IMG/VR virus record: IMGVR_UViG_3300034355_000215
Span: 1-30,253 of that record
From: a virus
Strand: one strand, 5' to 3'
DNA: 30,253 nt
The translations under genes were made by a program, and so were the position numbers. Of the stretch, positions 1,074-30,253 are shown piece after piece. How positions within the stretch are numbered: position 1 is the first letter of the stretch; every line of letters begins with the position of its first letter. Under the pieces are notes generated by a model. That model did no database searches. It saw nothing but the letters and a program-made list of their open reading frames with translations, and was not told where the DNA came from.

Positions 1074-1218
1074 TGTTCATAGCCTCTACGTCTGTCTTAG
1101 TCCATAATCCATATGATGGTTGTTTTCCTTCTCTAAGCATTTCGCATGGACATACAGGATCATCGCCCTGCGGTCCCATGCATGCACAAATGTCGTTACA
1201 ATGTTGGTAATTCGTCAT
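1033..1218 (-). CDS. Small cysteine-rich protein, 61 residues
   Basis: This protein has five cysteines in the first 26 residues, arranged C-x3-C-x-C and C-x-C (HCNDICACMG, then DDPVCPCEM), followed by a region containing Leu-Trp-Thr-Lys. The cysteine spacing suggests a small metal-binding knuckle (zinc or iron-sulfur), but I cannot assign a family. The ATG at 1218 overlaps the 3' end of nrdB by 23 bp, and the gene precedes the 53-residue ORF and glutaredoxin. A redox or metal role linked to RNR is possible from context and composition only. Confidence 0.7.
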   Translation of the reverse strand: MTNYQHCNDICACMGPQGDDPVCPCEMLREGKQPSYGLWTKTDVEAMNNAVGQIFKKISQG

Positions 1219-2290
1219 AATCTAATTCGTCACTCATAACGCCAATTACATAATTTACACTTTCAGATTCTTGTAAAGCAGTTTGCTTTTTACTTGGATC
1301 GGCGTGTTTGTTAAACCATGGAATAGGCGTTGATTTAGGTGCTTGTTCACGATACTTAATACCTACTTCTTTCAAAGCGTGTACTGCAGTATAGTCAACA
1401 AATTCTTTTAAGATGTTAGCATTAAGGCCAATCACTGGACCTTTTAAAAATAGGTAATCTGCCCATTCTTTTTCTTCGCGGATCACATCTAAGTACATAT
1501 TATACACGATTTCGTCACACTCTGCTTTAATTTCGGTAAAACGCGGATCATCTTTTATTACTTGATTAATCATATACGCAGTCCACTCTTTGTGTAATAA
1601 CTCATCTTGTAATATAAGCGCAATGATGTTACCATTACCAATAAACAGCCTGTTTTCGACCATTGCTAAACTAGTAGCAAATGATACCATAAAGCGGAAT
1701 GCTTCTAATGCATAACTTGCGTGTAGTGCAAGCCAAATAGCTTTAATGTGATCTCTTTCAAGAATTTCAATACCAAGTTCTTTTTGACAGTTAAGTTTAT
1801 GCAATTTATTGTAGTATTTGCCAACACTGCTTGCCATGTCAACAATTTCTTTAGTATCATGTATGGTGTTAAATATCTCTTTTGGAATATTATAGATATT
1901 ACGAATAATATGGCTATAACTACGACTATGAATATTTGATTCGTAAAACCCCCAATTAAGCATTAGTAGTTCTGCTTCGGGTACACTTACTACAGGTGTG
2001 AACACTTGGGTAGGACCGCGGCCTTGCAAACTATCTAATGCAGTTTGTCTTAGTAAGTTACTAGTGAATATGTGTTTAACTGCATCACTAGCATCTTTAA
2101 AATCGTTAGCATCTTTACTTAATGAAATCTCTTCTGGAGTCCAAAAGAACCCTCTAGCAGTTGCTTCAAACTTTTGAATACGTGGATAGCGTACTTCTTC
2201 AAATCTTTGAATTGTAACTGTTCCGTCTAGAAACAGTTTTCTAGACAAGTAGTTAGTTTGTTCACCTAAGTTATACTGTTCATCACTCAT
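1196..2290 (-). CDS. nrdB: Ribonucleotide reductase class Ia, small (R2) subunit
   Basis: A 364-residue R2 protein that holds the diiron-tyrosyl radical cofactor used by NrdA. Visible features matching E. coli NrdB: Asp86 in ALDSLQGR (ligand 1), Glu117 and His121 in ESNIHSRSY, radical Tyr125, Glu196 in YALEAFRF, and Glu230/His233 in QDELLH. The C-terminal tail is acidic and ends DELPTL, as expected for R1 docking. One oddity: the second metal motif is Glu-x3-His, where the E. coli enzyme has Glu-x2-His (115/118), so one residue is inserted between the conserved Trp113 and His121. The start overlaps the upstream gene by 8 bp. It is co-transcribed with nrdA, sod and grx. Assignment is certain; the metal is inferred. 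Confidence 0.98.
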   Translation of the reverse strand: MSDEQYNLGEQTNYLSRKLFLDGTVTIQRFEEVRYPRIQKFEATARGFFWTPEEISLSKDANDFKDASDAVKHIFTSNLLRQTALDSLQGRGPTQVFTPVVSVPEAELLMLNWGFYESNIHSRSYSHIIRNIYNIPKEIFNTIHDTKEIVDMASSVGKYYNKLHKLNCQKELGIEILERDHIKAIWLALHASYALEAFRFMVSFATSLAMVENRLFIGNGNIIALILQDELLHKEWTAYMINQVIKDDPRFTEIKAECDEIVYNMYLDVIREEKEWADYLFLKGPVIGLNANILKEFVDYTAVHALKEVGIKYREQAPKSTPIPWFNKHADPSKKQTALQESESVNYVIGVMSDELDYDELPTL

Positions 2291-3135: not shown

Positions 3136-3687
3136 TTACATCATAGATTCATTGATATGTTTCCAATTTATAATCTTCCACTGGTTTTCAAGATAACGTT
3201 TTTTATCCCATTGATAATCGAGAGAGTAAGAATGTTCCCACCAATCAACTAACAATACAATGTCTTTTTTAATAGCATGATTAGTTATTGTTTTGATCTT
3301 GCCATCTTTAGCAAGATAAACCCAACCACTGCCTTGTATGCCCATTGCTACTTTTAAAAACTCTTCTTTAAACTTATCAAAAGTTTTATAATGTGTTTCA
3401 ATTAAATCTAAAACTTTGCCAACTGGCTTGTTTAAATTGCCAGTTGACTCTTGATATTGTTGGAATAAGATATTGTGTAAAAATACACCTGCTTCATTAA
3501 ACACAGGATCACCTTCACCTGCATTATAACGCTTTGCGTATGTTTTAGCAAGATGTTCATAATGATAATCTAATGTTGCTTTTGATATAGCAGGGTTTAA
3601 ATCATCCATTCCGTATGGTAGAGGATCTATTTTTAATGATGCAGGTTTACCTTCAGTTATGAATTGCTTAATAAAACTATAGCTCAT
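3136..3687 (-). CDS. sod: Fe/Mn superoxide dismutase with N-terminal extension
   Basis: A 183-residue SodFM-family enzyme that converts superoxide to O2 and H2O2. All four metal ligands are present: His42 (LDYHY), His71 (FLHN), Asp148 and His152 (VDWWEHSY). Tyr50 matches the active-site Tyr34 of E. coli SOD. The outer-sphere positions are unusual: Gly67 where FeSOD has Gln69, and His137 (ITNHA) where MnSOD has Gln146. Together they suggest a His-gated variant whose metal cannot be predicted. The SOD fold starts near residue 19. Before it lies an extra segment ending FIKQFITEG that resembles T4 capsid-targeting peptides. The start codon overlaps the nrdA stop (ATGA), so it is translationally coupled to nrdA. 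It is unusual phage cargo. Confidence 0.95.
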   Translation of the reverse strand: MSYSFIKQFITEGKPASLKIDPLPYGMDDLNPAISKATLDYHYEHLAKTYAKRYNAGEGDPVFNEAGVFLHNILFQQYQESTGNLNKPVGKVLDLIETHYKTFDKFKEEFLKVAMGIQGSGWVYLAKDGKIKTITNHAIKKDIVLLVDWWEHSYSLDYQWDKKRYLENQWKIINWKHINESMM

Positions 3688-5999
3688 AGCTTACAGGCCT
3701 CGCAGGATTCTTCATCGTCTTCAATAATTGCACTAGGTAAATCAACTTCGGCTTCTTCTTTACTACCTTGTTTATTCACTAGGCTGTAATAAAAGGTTTT
3801 GATCCCCCATTTAAGTCCTAACATTAAGTTCTTAGCAATTAGTGTAGTTGGTACTTTTCTACCTTCAAAGTGTGCAGGGTTGTAAAAAGTATCAGTACTA
3901 ATAGATTGATCAATGTATGCAGCTAATACTGCAGCAGTTTTTAAATAACCTACGCAATCAGTTTGATCCCACATAAGCTGATATTTGTTTTTCAACTTAT
4001 GATATTCCGGAACTACTTGTGTAAGTGAACCTGATTTAGATTCTTTAGTTTGTATTAAATGCATTGGCATTGCAATGCCGTTAGTTGAGTTAATCACTAC
4101 ACTAGAACTTTCAACTGGAGCAATAGCACCTACTGTAGCATTACGTACACCGTACTCTTTCATATCAGCACGCAATGGTTCCCAATCAAGTTCTGGAGTA
4201 AAGTCAGTTAATTCATTAACTCCGTCTGCACGTAATTCCCACGGAAAAATACCCTGTCCGTACCGTGTTTTAGCACTGTCTCTACATGCACCACGTTCTT
4301 TAGCTAATTCAACTGACATTTCTGTTAGGAAGAATGTTTGATGTTCTATCCAACTTTTAACTTCAGTTAATGCATCTGCATCGCCGTATTTAAAGTTGCG
4401 TTTTGCATGCCAGTATGCTAAGTTAGTAACACCGATACCTAATGGACGTATTTCTTGATTACTTTCACTACTGTGTACAGATAAGAAATCTTGGTAGTCT
4501 AGTATGTTGTTTAAACTACGATGTAAGATACGGCAAGCTCTACGCATATCTTCTGGGTTACGGAAAGCTCCCCAATTGATACTACCTAGTGTACATAATG
4601 CAATTCGGCCAGCTGGATCATCTAAACGCTTAAATGCTTTGGTCGGAAGTAAAATCTCTTGACATAAATTACTTTGATAAATTGTATGCCATAATGGATC
4701 AAACGGTCCTTGCTTAATTACGTTATCTATAAAGACTAAGTAGATGCGCCCGGTGTCAGTTCGTTCTTTTAGGAGTCCTCCTTTGAATACTTCTTCCGCA
4801 GACATGGTCTTCTTCCGAACTCCTGTATTTTTTTCATACTGTAGGTACAGTTTTTCAAAGAGAGCTGTATCAGTGTAAAACGCTTCGTATAAGTCTGGAA
4901 CTTCATTAGGATCAAAAAATGTTATGTTTTCTTTGTTTTTAAATCTACGCCAAAAGAATGCACTTAATACTACACTGTAGTCTAAATGGCGTACCCGTGT
5001 TTCGTCTGTGCCTTGATTGTTCTTAAGTACAATTAAGTCATCAAACTGATAATGCCAAATTGGATATGTCACAGTAGCACTAGCATTTCTAATTCCACCT
5101 TGTGAACAGCAACGTAAGTCACCAAACCATTTCTTTAAAAATGGAATCATACCTGTGTGCATAATTTCACCACCGCGTATAGGACTTCCTAATGCGCGTA
5201 CACGTCCAATTTCTAAACCTATGCCAGCGCGTTTGCTAGCATATTTTGCCATCATCTCGCCACTAGCAAATATAGAATCCAAATCGTCATCACTGCGTAT
5301 GAGAACACAGCTGCTAAATTGTTTAGTTGGAGTTCCGAGCCCAGCAAGAACAGGAGTAGCAAGAGTAAATAAACCATCAGACGCCGCATTGTAATATTCC
5401 TTTATAAATTTCATTCTAGCTGCAGTTGGTTCTTCCCTATGGAACACAGTTGCAGCTGCAATTATATATCTAATCTGTGGTGTTTCGTAAATGTCTTTAG
5501 TAGAACGATTACGTACTAAGTATTTTTCAATTAACTGCTCAATAGCAGCAAATGAATAAGTTTCGTCTTTTGAATGATCAAGCATGTCATTCATTTTGGT
5601 CCATTCGTCTACAGTATACCATTCTAGTAATTCTGGAGTGTATAGACCAACTTCAATGTTCTTTTGAACAATTGTATATAGATGTGGCGGCTCGTATTGT
5701 CCGTATACATCTTTACGTAGCATAGACAACCGTTGTTTGCCTGCAACGTATTGGTAATTAGTATGACCTACATCTGGGTTAGCATCAACATCAATTAAGT
5801 TAACGATTGCCCGTAGTGTAATTTCGTCAATTTCGGATGTAGTAATATTATCGTAAAATTGTGGCTGACTTTTAATTTCAATCATAGACTGACTTACATC
5901 GGCAATTCCGCTACAAATCTTTGCAATTTGTGCCTGCCATTTATCAATCGTAAGCTCTACTTGAGTGCCATTTCTTTTTGTTACTGTTATTTTATTCAT
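3684..5999 (-). CDS. nrdA: Ribonucleotide reductase class Ia, large (R1) subunit
   Basis: A 771-residue protein close to the usual R1 length. It reduces ribonucleoside diphosphates to deoxy forms. An N-terminal ATP-cone-like region (residues 1-95) precedes the ten-strand barrel. Catalytic residues are Cys231 (FSSCVLI), Asn444, Cys446 and Glu448 in SNLCQE, and Cys469 (CTLGSINWG). The radical-relay tyrosines are Tyr737/738 (KTFYYS). The tail carries Cys766 and Cys769 (SCEACKL), a CxxC pair that glutaredoxin can reduce; E. coli has a wider CxxxxC spacing. No intein or intron interrupts it despite the nearby HNH gene. It is the first gene of the operon, and its stop overlaps the sod start. Confidence 0.99.
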   Translation of the reverse strand: MNKITVTKRNGTQVELTIDKWQAQIAKICSGIADVSQSMIEIKSQPQFYDNITTSEIDEITLRAIVNLIDVDANPDVGHTNYQYVAGKQRLSMLRKDVYGQYEPPHLYTIVQKNIEVGLYTPELLEWYTVDEWTKMNDMLDHSKDETYSFAAIEQLIEKYLVRNRSTKDIYETPQIRYIIAAATVFHREEPTAARMKFIKEYYNAASDGLFTLATPVLAGLGTPTKQFSSCVLIRSDDDLDSIFASGEMMAKYASKRAGIGLEIGRVRALGSPIRGGEIMHTGMIPFLKKWFGDLRCCSQGGIRNASATVTYPIWHYQFDDLIVLKNNQGTDETRVRHLDYSVVLSAFFWRRFKNKENITFFDPNEVPDLYEAFYTDTALFEKLYLQYEKNTGVRKKTMSAEEVFKGGLLKERTDTGRIYLVFIDNVIKQGPFDPLWHTIYQSNLCQEILLPTKAFKRLDDPAGRIALCTLGSINWGAFRNPEDMRRACRILHRSLNNILDYQDFLSVHSSESNQEIRPLGIGVTNLAYWHAKRNFKYGDADALTEVKSWIEHQTFFLTEMSVELAKERGACRDSAKTRYGQGIFPWELRADGVNELTDFTPELDWEPLRADMKEYGVRNATVGAIAPVESSSVVINSTNGIAMPMHLIQTKESKSGSLTQVVPEYHKLKNKYQLMWDQTDCVGYLKTAAVLAAYIDQSISTDTFYNPAHFEGRKVPTTLIAKNLMLGLKWGIKTFYYSLVNKQGSKEEAEVDLPSAIIEDDEESCEACKL

Positions 6000-6024: not shown

Positions 6025-6031
6025 TATTTAT
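6025..6031 (-). promoter_or_regulatory. Late-type promoter upstream of nrdA
   Basis: ATAAATA followed by C on the minus strand lies 26 bp before the nrdA ATG, at a sensible distance for a leader of about 20 nt. It matches the motif found before several structural genes here, so the nrd operon may also be transcribed late. Confidence 0.5.
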
Positions 6032-13894: not shown

Positions 13895-14296
13895 TTATTC
13901 CACAGCTTGTTGTTTAAATAAATTAGGGTGCATTTTACCCCATTTACGCATGATAACAGCAGCTTGCGCATTTGCTTCGTTTTCATGATCGCTCCCATCG
14001 TTGCCACTGTCTGGAGTTAACTCATTGTTTAAGTCTTGTCTATAATGCACAAGCTCATGTGCTAACGTTCTACATACATCCATAATATGTCTATTAGATA
14101 AGGTAACAGTTATATGTTTATCACCGTATCCGCCAAATGATCTAAATTCTACACTACGATCGTTACCGTCTTGCATTTCGATATTTGGTAATTCTTGTAA
14201 ACCTAATTCAGAAGATGCAAATTTAATAAATTTACTAATTATATTAGTAGCGTTATTGCGAGATAACCCTTCTGTTAATATTTCATGTACTTTCAT
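13895..14296 (-). CDS. Zinc metallopeptidase (HExxH), putative packaged enzyme
   Basis: A 133-residue protein with the zincin motif His80-Glu81-Leu-Val-His84 (TLAHELVHYRQDL). It is followed about 20 residues later by DHENEANAQAA, whose Glu105 or Glu107 is a good third zinc ligand. This is the gluzincin layout. It is a minimal peptidase domain without signal peptide. The N-terminus MKVHEILTEG closely resembles T4 capsid-targeting peptides (MKTYQEFIAE in internal proteins), with a gp21-type LxE cleavage site after residue 9. It could be packed into the head and injected, or act in virion maturation; both are inference. It lies 15 bp after a 61-residue gene and 2 bp before the next. Confidence 0.82.
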   Translation of the reverse strand: MKVHEILTEGLSRNNATNIISKFIKFASSELGLQELPNIEMQDGNDRSVEFRSFGGYGDKHITVTLSNRHIMDVCRTLAHELVHYRQDLNNELTPDSGNDGSDHENEANAQAAVIMRKWGKMHPNLFKQQAVE

Positions 14297-26552: not shown

Positions 26553-26926
26553 TATTGCCCCCTCATTGCTTTAATCATTACAATATGTTCAGGATGATCG
26601 TCTGTTGGTTCAAATTCTGTATCAATTAAATGCGGATACGCACTTGGATCTTTAACTCGTATATCAGCAGGATGTTTTGGACCATTCATTCCGCCACCTG
26701 CATGTATTGTAACTGAATCTAAATCTGCATACGCCGGATTAGGTTCATTAATAAATCTGTGTCTTTCTGGACTATCTGCCAAATCAACAATTTGCTTAAA
26801 TCTGTTAATGTCATCACCTGCTGTTACTTTATGATCAGGTTTAAGTATAAACTCTGGTTCAATGGGTTCTTGTTCTCCGCCATCAATCAAGTTTAACATG
26901 TTTCTAATAATATCTTGAACTCTCAT
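26552..26926 (-). CDS. Hypothetical protein, 124 residues, first of the adhesin series
   Basis: An acidic soluble protein starting [17 protein letters not shown], with many Pro, Asp and His residues ([17 protein letters not shown], then [13 protein letters not shown]). No family recognised. It has a late promoter at 26945-26951 and SD AAGAGGACA. It opens the run of coupled minus-strand genes that ends near 14312. Its N-terminus resembles those of short neighbours. Confidence 0.75.
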
Positions 26927-26944
26927 TTTTGTGTCCTCTTATCA

Positions 26945-26951
26945 TATTTAT
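26945..26951 (-). promoter_or_regulatory. Late promoter of the adhesin series
   Basis: CATAAATATGAT on the minus strand lies 18 bp before ATG 26926, with AAGAGGACA as SD. It faces away from the ALAS gene and shares a 38-bp gap with the ALAS control motif. Confidence 0.75.
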
Positions 26952-26952
26952 G

Positions 26953-26960
26953 TTTAAATA
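26953..26960 (+). promoter_or_regulatory. Late-promoter-like motif fused to the ALAS start
   Basis: TTTAAATAC followed by GGT and ATG 26965. No SD is present. Spacing equals the motifs before 386 and 12995. It lies back to back with the minus-strand late promoter, only one base away. Confidence 0.42.
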
Positions 26961-26964
26961 CGGT

Positions 26965-28188
26965 ATGACTATAAACATTGAACCCTTTAAACAAACTATT
27001 CAAACGTTAAAAGACTCTGGTAACTACCGTGTGTTTAACGATATATTACGAGAAAACGGTAAGTTCCCAACTGCAATTTGGTACGGTCCGTATAATATTA
27101 AAAATATTATAAACTGGTGTAGTAACGATTATTTAGGAATGGGACAACATAAAGTTGTTCTTGATGCTATGCGTACTGCATTAGACATGACCGGTGCAGG
27201 AAGTGGCGGTACTAGAAACATATCCGGAACTAGTCATTATCATGTTGCATTAGAATATGAACTAGCATTATTACATAAGAAAGATAGAGCTTTGTTATTC
27301 AGCTCTGCATATGTTGCTAATGAATGGAGTTTAATTGCATTATCTAAAATTGTAAAAGATATTGAATTTATAAGCGACAGTAAAAATCACAATAGTTTAA
27401 TAGTTGGCATGTCACACAGCAGAGCACCAAAACAGATATTTAAACATAATGATTTAATTGATTTAGAAGAATGTTTAATTAGATCAAAAGAAAACAATCA
27501 TACACCTTGTATTGTGTTTGAAAGTGTATACTCAATGGACGGTGATATAAGTCTAATAGCTGATATTTGTGATTTAGCAGATAAATACCACGCTATAACC
27601 TATATAGACGAAGTACACGCCGTTGGACTTTATGGCACATGTGGAGCTGGGAAGCTAGAAGAACTACAATTACAGGGGAGAGTCGACATAGTCAACGGTA
27701 CTCTTGGTAAAGCGTTTGGAGTCCAGGGCGGATATATCGCAGCAACTGCAGCCGTAATTGATGCAATACGATCAGTAGCAGCAGGTTTTATATTTACAAC
27801 ATCAATGAGTCCGGTAACATGTGCCGGAGCATTAGCCGCAGTTAAATATCTTAAAGATCATAATGAGTTAAGATTAAAACATCAACAACAAGCAAATAAA
27901 TTAAAAGAACGATTAATAGAAGCAGGGTTACCTGTTATGCAAAGTGATACACACATTGTTCCAGTTCTAGTAGGCGATGCTAAAAGATGCAAAACAATGA
28001 GTGACATGCTATTAAATGATTTTAATATCTATTCACAAGCAATAAATTCACCAACTGTCCCAGTAGGAACAGAGCGTTTGCGATTTGCACCTACTCCATT
28101 GCATACTGATGGGATGATTGACGATTTAGTTAATGCACTTGTTATCGTGTTTGATCTGTGTACTTGTCATAACACAGATTTGCCATAA
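26965..28188 (+). CDS. hemA: 5-aminolevulinate synthase (ALAS)
   Basis: A 407-residue PLP enzyme that condenses glycine and succinyl-CoA to 5-aminolevulinate, the first step of the Shemin tetrapyrrole pathway. Residues match the Rhodobacter enzyme in near-identical numbering: Arg22 (YRVF), Thr83 in [11 protein letters not shown], His142 (KNHNS), Asp215 and His218 (YIDEVHAVG), and the PLP lysine Lys249 (GTLGKAFG). I choose ATG 26965 over ATG 26950, 15 bp upstream, since this gives the family N-terminus; neither has an SD. It is not the related AONS/KBL group because of the GTRNISGT signature and Arg22. Phage-borne ALAS genes have been reported in aquatic phage sequences and point to alphaproteobacterial hosts. 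The 3' end overlaps denV by 22 bp. Confidence 0.97.
28154..28179. terminator. Palindrome inside the convergent ALAS/denV overlap
   Basis: ATCTGTGT (28154-28161) pairs perfectly with ACACAGAT (28172-28179) around a 10-nt loop. It spans the shared 3' ends of two converging genes. No T-tract follows on either side, so it may pause or protect transcripts rather than terminate as a classic element. Confidence 0.5.
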
Positions 28189-28816: not shown

Positions 28817-29554
28817 ATGATATCAGATTTAACCTTTGAACAAAAATCATTAACAATGGCAACAATGAGCAGTCTTGCATATAATGACGATCAAGAATTT
28901 AAAGAATTAGGATATGACAGTAAATTTATAAGCCATGGTGGGTCAGACTTGTATGTATTATGGGACAACGATGATTTAATAGTAGTGTGTCGTGGGACAC
29001 AACCAACTCACTTTAATGATGTTGCACATGACATAGAATTTGCACTAGTACCGAGTAGATCAGGACACGGGTTAGTGCATCATGGATTTAGAACAAGTGT
29101 AGATCTTATTTGGGTTGACTTATTAAAGATGTTACAAAAATACGGTGCTAATCGTAAAGTATGGTGTACAGGTCATAGTTTAGGTGCAGCAATGGCAACC
29201 CTTATAACTGCAAGATGTGCGCGTACAGAAAAATTAACTACGCCGTTTTTATATACATACGGTAGTCCGCGTGTTGGTGATATGACATTTATTAAACACA
29301 TGAATAGCTTAAACATCGAACATCATAGATGGGTAAACAATGCAGATGCAGTTACACGGAATCCAATATTTCCATATAAGCATCATGGTCAGCTACACTA
29401 CTTTGATCATCATGGCAATGTAAGAGTTTTTACAAGATGGCAGACAATCAAAGATAGAGTAAAAGGTTTTTATATCGGACTTAAAAAAGGTAAGATTAAT
29501 TTCTTTGTTAATCACGATATTGGAAATTACATTAAAAACTTAGGAAGGTTATAA
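28817..29554 (+). CDS. Class 3 lipase (alpha/beta hydrolase)
   Basis: A 245-residue lipase-3 family protein without signal peptide, so it is expected in the cytoplasm until lysis. The nucleophile elbow is Gly119-His-Ser121-Leu-Gly123 (GHSLGAAMA). The catalytic Asp is probably Asp177 (NNADAVTRNP), and the His is probably His233 (NHDIGNY). YGSPRVGD matches the family strand after the elbow. It would hydrolyse glycerolipid esters, perhaps host membrane phospholipids during takeover or lysis. It is transcribed with the 47-residue ORF (9-bp gap; SD AGGAG). The 3' end overlaps the opposing nuclease by 6 bp. Confidence 0.93.
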   Translation: MISDLTFEQKSLTMATMSSLAYNDDQEFKELGYDSKFISHGGSDLYVLWDNDDLIVVCRGTQPTHFNDVAHDIEFALVPSRSGHGLVHHGFRTSVDLIWVDLLKMLQKYGANRKVWCTGHSLGAAMATLITARCARTEKLTTPFLYTYGSPRVGDMTFIKHMNSLNIEHHRWVNNADAVTRNPIFPYKHHGQLHYFDHHGNVRVFTRWQTIKDRVKGFYIGLKKGKINFFVNHDIGNYIKNLGRL

Positions 29555-29562
29555 ACCTTTCC
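29543..29562. terminator. Palindrome at the convergent lipase/nuclease ends
   Basis: AAGGTT-ATA-AACCTT, extended by one G-U pair and one GC pair, spans both stop codons of the converging genes. Both C-termini are encoded within the palindrome. No T-tract follows. Confidence 0.45.
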
Positions 29563-30253
29563 ATAAGTTACGATTAATAGTTTGTTCAATTGGACTAGTC
29601 CCAAGTGCCGGAAAGAAGTTAATGTTTACTACGTTTTGTAACTGCTCAACAGTTAAAATAAACTTAGGTAACTCTCTAGCAGAAATTCCGTCATTTGGTA
29701 TTAAGAATGCAATTGTTTGATTATTAGTTGCATCATAAATTGCCTTCCATAAGTAATCAGGAATAGCTACACCTTTACCAATTGTTTTAATTTGTTTACC
29801 AGGTTGATAATAAGTTCCAGAAGTTACATAAATATCACGCCCTTCCCCTGCCCAGTTACGAACAGTTGATTCTAACTTATTCCAAATACCTCTGTTGTTG
29901 GCAGGTACTTGTGGAACCATATTAGTAAGTGCAAAACTTTCACTCATAATTTCTTTAGTTTGAGTACTGTCACCTGCAGGAACTAGGTGTCCTCTGTCAT
30001 ATGGATGACCTGCATAGTCGTGCAGTGTTGCTCTAAATTGTTCTGGTACATCTAAGTCTGGATGAAAGTCGTCTTGACGACGAACTACTCCACTCATATC
30101 TTCAGGAGAAACATGTTCAACTACATACTCTGCAGTTTTTGTATCATATCGATAATGAATAGCATAGTTTTGTTTACACAAGTATTGTGAAGCAGTAAGT
30201 TGCGACACTGGAGCACCGTGTATAGAAAACTGTGGACATTTGTCATCAATGGG
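29549..30253 (-). CDS. DNA/RNA non-specific endonuclease, cut by right edge
   Basis: The frame stays open to the window edge, so the N-terminus is missing. A GTG at 30208 could be a start, but the 15 codons before it (DDKCPQFSIHGAP) look like the family's domain opening. The catalytic motif is DRGH (His74 counted from GTG), followed by LTNMVPQ and NNRGIWNKLE, whose Asn binds the metal, and VRNWA. This is the NucA/Serratia-type ββα-metal nuclease, which degrades DNA and RNA without sequence preference. Bacterial relatives are often secreted; whether this one has a signal peptide lies outside the window. It would help host nucleic-acid breakdown, feeding the RNR pathway. It converges on the lipase gene with 6 bp overlap. 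Confidence 0.95.
   Translation of the reverse strand, partial: PIDDKCPQFSIHGAPVSQLTASQYLCKQNYAIHYRYDTKTAEYVVEHVSPEDMSGVVRRQDDFHPDLDVPEQFRATLHDYAGHPYDRGHLVPAGDSTQTKEIMSESFALTNMVPQVPANNRGIWNKLESTVRNWAGEGRDIYVTSGTYYQPGKQIKTIGKGVAIPDYLWKAIYDATNNQTIAFLIPNDGISARELPKFILTVEQLQNVVNINFFPALGTSPIEQTINRNLWKGL

Follow-up and report, generated by a model that had tools for sequence, protein, structure and literature searches.

The window, a stretch of viral DNA of 30,253 nucleotides, encodes a protein which by its sequence is a Fe/Mn superoxide dismutase (SOD) of jumbo phages (Table 1) and which carries a short N-terminal leader ending in the predicted cleavage site of a T4-type prohead protease. It is fairly probable that this SOD is a capsid cargo that is targeted by its leader, trimmed after Glu12 by a gp21-type protease and delivered to the next host. 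The SOD fold follows from homology and a structural model, the leader with its protease-site footprint is conserved, and an S77 protease is encoded by long relatives of the window. Packaging, cleavage, injection and the physiological purpose of the enzyme are what we infer, injection being probable.

Table 1. Features of the SOD gene and its surroundings, in positions of the window
Feature	Position	Strand	Basis
Fe/Mn superoxide dismutase with N-terminal leader, 183 aa	3136..3687	-	ORF, Pfam, PDB matches, AlphaFold model
SOD catalytic domain, residues 19-180; metal ligands H42, H71, D148, H152	3148..3633	-	Pfam, invariant columns (27 sequences), alignment with E. coli SodA/SodB
Predicted capsid-targeting leader MSYSFIKQFITE, residues 1-12	3652..3687	-	56/56 relatives, low pLDDT
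Predicted prohead-protease triplet I-T-E (P3-P1), expected cut Glu12/Gly13	3652..3660	-	Column conservation, 56 representatives
nrdA-like ORF (ribonucleotide reductase large subunit), stop overlaps SOD start	3684..5999	-	By eye; C-terminal CEACKL
nrdB-like ORF of the nrd gene block	1196..2290	-	Named by eye from ORF
T4-late-promoter-like ATAAATA upstream of the nrdA-sod operon	6025..6031	-	Motif position

The protein matches the Pfam domains Sod_Fe_C (1.2e-22) and Sod_Fe_N (1.6e-7), both above their curated cut-offs (80.3 bits against 20.9 and 32.1 against 27). The latter match begins at residue 19, in agreement with the preliminary description, which had placed the start of the SOD fold near this residue and had the coordinates of the gene right. 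All three NCBIfam SOD equivalogs score below cut-off (81 bits against 348 for the Fe SodB-type, 45.4 against 363 for the Mn SodA-type and 65.6 against 300 for the halophile Mn type), and the protein is classified as an SOD, yet as none of these three types. A PHROG search gave no match at E <= 0.001. A sequence search of the PDB returned 155 matches at E <= 0.001, and all 60 of those listed are SODs; likewise, Fe/Mn SODs make up all of the best 50 matches listed when the model was compared with the PDB by Foldseek. The AlphaFold monomer model has a mean pLDDT of 86.3 and a pTM of 0.82, with 118 residues at a pLDDT of 90 or more; besides the leader, the block of residues 151-160 is also low (pLDDT 64).

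Bacterial SodA and SodB have the fold, the metal ligands and the DxWEH motif in common with the phage SODs. The four metal ligands are invariant among 27 non-redundant phage relatives, as are Y50, which is equivalent to Tyr34, and the DWWEH motif. Alignment of seven phage SODs to E. coli SodA and SodB places a Leu at the His30 position, finds Tyr163 absent, and shows a Gly at the position of the Fe-type Gln69 and a His near the Mn-type Gln146, where the E. coli residue numbers and the interface and second-sphere roles of these residues are those which we take them to have. The phage clade differs from SodA and SodB in its leader, in a shorter alpha-hairpin, in the Leu at the His30 position and in the arrangement of the second-sphere Gln positions. 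As the ligands are invariant and the His30, Tyr163 and Gln positions are altered, the clade probably consists of active enzymes in which the dimer interface and the second sphere are unusual.

The N-terminal extension is 18 residues long and consists of MSYSFIKQFITE followed by Gly13 and the remaining residues up to the domain. There is no in-frame ATG, GTG or TTG between codons 1 and 27 of the ORF, and because codon 27 already lies inside the SOD domain, the extension is translated with every full SOD domain. In the AlphaFold model, residues 1-11 have a pLDDT below 50 and a short helix is predicted at residues 4-7. The preliminary description had pointed to an (L/I)xE site followed by a small residue, and this was recovered throughout the non-redundant phage relatives: (L/I)-x-E followed by G, A or S is found in 56/56 representatives at less than 90% identity, in 20/20 at less than 75% and in 8/8 at less than 65%. 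A broader form near the start, (L/I/V)xE with G, S or A behind it, is common to all 125 phage SODs in which the leader region is complete; P3 is L or I in 123 of them and V in two (L023 and L024). Among the 56 representatives P3 is Leu in 38 and Ile in 18, P1 is Glu in every one, and P1' is Gly in 53, Ala in two and Ser in one; P2 is occupied by eleven different residues and is the most variable of the 183 columns. Codons vary at the P1' Gly (GGT, GGC or GGA) and at the Glu (GAA or GAG), and the constraint therefore acts on the protein. A fixed P3 and P1 around a drifting P2 constitutes the putative footprint of a T4-type prohead-protease site.

The distance from the start to the Glu ranges from 10 to 13 residues, and the leader upstream of the site varies, examples being MSYSFIKQFITE, MSYSFIRNVLLE, MYNFIKWTLNE, MDNEIKKFLTILE/G, MHQEILKWQQIVE/G and MTDIRQTLDLLE/A (the slash marks the expected bond). 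The divergent homologue of phage PA5oct, with MNDSIKKYISIAE/A, retains IAE/A. The tetrapeptide alone is not rare near an N-terminus, as (L/I/V)xE(G/S/A) occurs within the first 18 residues of 29/469 ORFs of the 372-kb relative G001, and it is the conservation that exceeds chance. An N-terminal leader is absent from the SOD of Vibrio phage 2.275.O, a distant homologue outside the 56; counting it, the figure is 56/57.

These counts derive from a scan of IMG/VR, where the 80 best loci among 396 encoded relatives were taken, and from a later scan for divergent relatives, of which 45 of 80 loci were used, the others lying on contigs already sampled. Together with the PA5oct homologue, the leader comparison comprises the 125 sequences in which this region is complete; clustering at 90% identity leaves 56 representatives, at 75% it leaves 20 and at 65% eight. 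L041 (at a contig edge) and L055 (144 aa) were dropped before counting and L059 (192 aa) was dropped from the column-conservation alignment, while L132, which is without its N-terminus, and the Vibrio phage homologue stand outside the 56/56. When viral contigs were searched, the PA5oct SOD as query gave one locus (L136, which was used) and the Vibrio SOD gave none. A scan of contigs from bacterial genomes, whose two search patterns reach close relatives only, gave a single relative, L132. This SOD fragment (L132 3-356) is 55% identical to the phage clade and lies at the edge of a contig of a Polaromonas MAG, where its end overlaps an erpA-like ORF (by eye), as could result from an assembly chimera or a real transfer. 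The record MW462191 was considered as a phage SOD and left out, its neighbours looking bacterial, and MT839568, a record that bears no annotation, was also left out.

Whether the extension is conserved only in phages, a point which the preliminary description had raised, was addressed with a control set composed of the best-scoring 30 of 98 matches in 120 genomes and L135, the start being taken as the nearest ATG; being chosen by score, these loci are not a random sample, and they are proteobacterial and may not represent the group of the host. The leader site is absent from all 31 proteobacterial SODs, even if translation may begin at any in-frame start as far as 40 codons upstream, against its presence in each of the 56 phage representatives. 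The proteobacterial SODs have seven residues before the LPY-type motif, except for one with 14. In a tree in which the long branches of PA5oct and Vibrio are placed unsurely, the phage SODs separate from the proteobacterial SODs and E. coli SodA and SodB as a single group with a support of 100/100. The window also encodes a 5-aminolevulinate synthase (26929-28188, +; TIGR01821, E 5e-169, above cut-off); the haem route through this enzyme is typical of alphaproteobacteria, and the gene may hint at the host.

The leaders of T4, translated from its GenBank record, read FIAE/A in ipII and ipIII, TITE/A in ipI, LLRE/S in gp24, LIAE/A in gp22 and FLTE/A in gp23, and we take each of these six proteins to be cleaved at the bond indicated. 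The published cleavage rule of T4 gp21 is L/I-X-E, and incorporation of IPIII is described as requiring only its first ten residues, with targeting depending most on positions 4 and 7 (PMC9026906). The window SOD resembles the T4 internal proteins IPI, IPII and IPIII, which carry a CTS, in its short leader with (L/I)xE and a small residue (FIAE/A in ipIII, FITE/G in the SOD) and in that a gp21-family protease is also present in its phage group. It differs in being a cellular-type enzyme and a predicted cargo, whereas the T4 internal proteins are small and phage-specific, and the targeting residues of its leader are not those described for positions 4 and 7 of the T4 CTS (PMC9026906). Among the records of relatives, the gp21-family protease (Pfam S77) was found in 7/7 with a length of 280 kb or more and in 0/10 shorter ones, which are possibly fragments; the window record is a 30-kb fragment, and the S77 result comes from its long relatives. 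LTE/A of T4 gp23 corresponds to LME/S in the major capsid protein of G001 and to LVE/N in that of PA5oct, which suggests that the protease of these phages follows the same rule. Removal of propeptides after Glu by a prohead protease and ejection proteins that enter the host are also described for the heads of SPN3US and phiKZ, where according to these accounts the site is A-x-E or S/A-x-E and the propeptides are mostly long, in contrast to the (L/I)-x-E and 10-13 residues of the SOD phages (PMC5694885, PMC9026906).

The PA5oct homologue, gp223, is 39.7% identical to the window SOD and bears the note 'ESI-MS/MS' in GenBank. The 93 PA5oct CDS with such notes include ribonucleotide reductase subunits, thymidylate synthase, RIIB, a putative DNA ligase and FtsH; as intracellular enzymes are among them, the list may hold carry-over from the cell, and the flag raises the probability of packaging only moderately. 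A leader-like site is found in 7/88 flagged against 12/308 unflagged PA5oct ORFs (p 0.15), which is no significant enrichment, and none of four leader-motif patterns is significantly associated with the flags. The work on PA5oct presumably comes from the same laboratories as that on phage KTN4. In the KTN4 paper the term ESI-MS/MS is used for structural proteome analysis (PMC4908380), and the paper on phage MIJ3 refers to the PA5oct homologue of MIJ3 FtsH as annotated structural (PMC6892783).

The SOD of Vibrio phage 2.275.O (L083 7968-8537) is leaderless although this phage encodes a gp21-family protease. Its C-terminal tail ends MLDESVNIRHLINFISK. This end was considered as a C-terminal equivalent of the leader and rejected, such sites being no commoner at C-termini than in random internal windows (26/464 against 5.8% in 2.275.O, 20/469 against 4.3% in G001 and 14/396 against 4.5% in PA5oct). 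The capsid-targeting interpretation put forward in the preliminary description is thus upheld in part: the phage-conserved L/I-x-E, the S77 protease of the long relatives and the ESI-MS/MS note of PA5oct speak for it, and the leaderless Vibrio homologue and the mass spectrometry notes on intracellular enzymes speak against it.

The gene had also been assigned to an nrd operon, and this is borne out by a 4-nt overlap of its start with the stop of the nrdA-like ORF and by nrdB-like and glutaredoxin-like ORFs (by eye) further along, with an HNH endonuclease ORF between. Coupling to nrdA is seen in at least 78/119 loci, which are those of the 125 examined for it once near-copies and PA5oct were excluded; the strict pattern used misses at least L032, L037, L039 and L077-L079, so that this is a lower bound. 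ATAAATA corresponds to the late promoter consensus of T4, and in G001 it lies within 45 nt upstream of 50/469 ORFs, where 3.9 are expected. TAAATA is found within 60 nt of sod in 22/119 loci, all of which belong to the 41 that were not scored as nrdA-coupled, and is absent within this distance from the other 19 of the 41. A late-promoter-like element also precedes the PA5oct sod. Nine of ten loci chosen for a view upstream of nrdA gave a row, and six of these nine have the element before nrdA, including L002, whose SOD is 100% identical to that of the window; the other three nrdA genes have none within 50 nt. Late expression, as predicted from these motifs, fits head assembly and falls short of proof. 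Upstream of sod at L009 / G001 near 294649, the ORF has a length of just 320 aa and a GIY-YIG-like ORF (by eye) lies nearby, so that nrdA may be interrupted there. Elsewhere in the window a DNA/RNA non-specific endonuclease (29549-30208, -) adjoins a class 3 lipase (28817-29554, +).

It is proposed that the 12-residue leader docks newly made SOD on the prohead core and that the gp21-type (S77) protease of the phage would cut it off after Glu12 in the course of head maturation. The trimmed SOD, with Gly13 as its N-terminus, would then sit in the DNA-filled head and enter the next host with the DNA, where it would clear superoxide in the first minutes, ahead of phage gene expression. The delivered enzyme may thereby shield the DNA on its entry, as well as metal enzymes, among them the phage ribonucleotide reductase.

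The coupling to nrdA could instead be taken to mean that the SOD acts exclusively in the infected cell, where it would guard the co-translated phage ribonucleotide reductase and where the leader would serve in partner docking or regulated turnover. The overlap with the nrdA-like stop in the window and the coupling in most loci are in line with such a role, as is the ESI-MS/MS note that several intracellular enzymes of PA5oct bear along with the SOD. However, the (L/I)xE/(G/A/S) site is kept in lineages that were not scored as nrdA-coupled and have TAAATA close before sod, and a P2 that varies between a fixed P3 and P1 would not be expected from intracellular use alone; we regard an exclusively intracellular role as unlikely.

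Quite improbable in our estimate is a structural function of the extension, for example as an N-terminal helix which stabilises the dimer or tetramer after loss of the His30-Tyr163 interface pair. Replacement of both positions in the seven aligned phage SODs and the helix predicted at residues 4-7 would suit this function, and among the 27 relatives F5 is invariant, I6 nearly so and E12-G13 likewise, but the low pLDDT of residues 1-11 in a monomer model that is otherwise confident at 118 residues, and a spacing from start to Glu that ranges from 10 to 13 residues, argue against it. The altered His30 and Tyr163 positions could also be read to mean that the packaged SOD is a structural or scaffolding filler of the head core whose value is not enzymatic. 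The invariance of the four metal ligands, Y50 and DWWEH in all 27 relatives makes such a filler very improbable indeed.

If the SOD is a leader-targeted cargo, it may have company. MKIxELLxE-like leaders are present on 26/469 ORFs of G001 (loci L095-L113) against 1/1383 internal Met, a contrast that is post hoc because the pattern was defined after the N-termini of G001 had been viewed. A further measurement in G001, made separately, places ATAAATA or CTAAATA upstream of 13/26 of these ORFs against 47/443 others (p 2e-6). The SOD leader does not match the MKIxELLxE core, which is the main leader pattern of G001. ORFs with such leaders start in the window at 26926, 24162, 14296, 12302, 11605 and 10952 (-). 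By eye or through weak matches, some of the proteins with MKIxELLxE-like leaders resemble GNAT acetyltransferases, HExxH metallopeptidases and enzymes of kinase and nucleotidyltransferase fold. Ten G001 proteins were scanned (nine of the 26 and one other), giving weak matches to a GNAT, a metallopeptidase and a kinase-like domain (one each), and two of the ten exceed a Pfam cut-off (PG_binding_1 and DUF5591). The ORF at 13895-14296 (-) of the window encodes a small protein containing HELVH, with the leader MKVHEILTEG, and a similar ORF lies in G001 at 305055; its product matches nothing in Pfam or NCBIfam at E <= 0.001 and has one weak match, to a PHROG of unknown function. The chances appear about even that a large group of jumbo phages pre-load their heads with a tagged enzyme kit for infection, of which the SOD would be the first recognisable member and the proteins with MKIxELLxE-like leaders the others.

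SODs have already been annotated in phages, namely sodB of MIJ3 and Callisto, the SOD of Vibrio phage 2.275.O and BFVD A0A6J5L7W0, which is of the same enzyme family and shares 49% identity with the window SOD model; a leader, cleavage or packaging is undescribed for these in the accessible parts of the annotation and literature searched. A further BFVD entry, A0A6J5L953, is a phage protein of 501 residues that contains an SOD fold and is possibly a fusion. The chlorovirus PBCV-1 has a Cu/Zn SOD, the fold of which we take to be unrelated to that of Fe/Mn SODs, and we know of no prohead-protease leader in this enzyme. It is described as late-expressed, virion-packaged and tied to lower superoxide in infected cells (PMC7019647), and a review names SOD among the enzymes included in large virions (PMC9405923). 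PBCV-1 is thus an algal virus with a packaged SOD, whereas the window SOD is of the Fe/Mn type and belongs to a phage, and its packaging is what we infer. No report of a packaged phage SOD was found in the accessible parts of the literature searched on phage SOD and capsid targeting. What would be new is the class of payload that a CTS-type leader carries, phage SOD genes and a packaged viral SOD being already known.

As PA5oct and its relatives are cultured phages, the packaged-SOD reading is directly testable. If it is true, oxidative stress in the first minutes of infection would matter to phages, and a phage would disarm superoxide with an enzyme carried in its particle and not made after infection, as a bacterial-virus counterpart of the packaged chlorovirus SOD. 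The leader with its (L/I)xE site, together with a late promoter, would then provide a sequence rule by which head-delivered or injected effectors of jumbo phages may be predicted.
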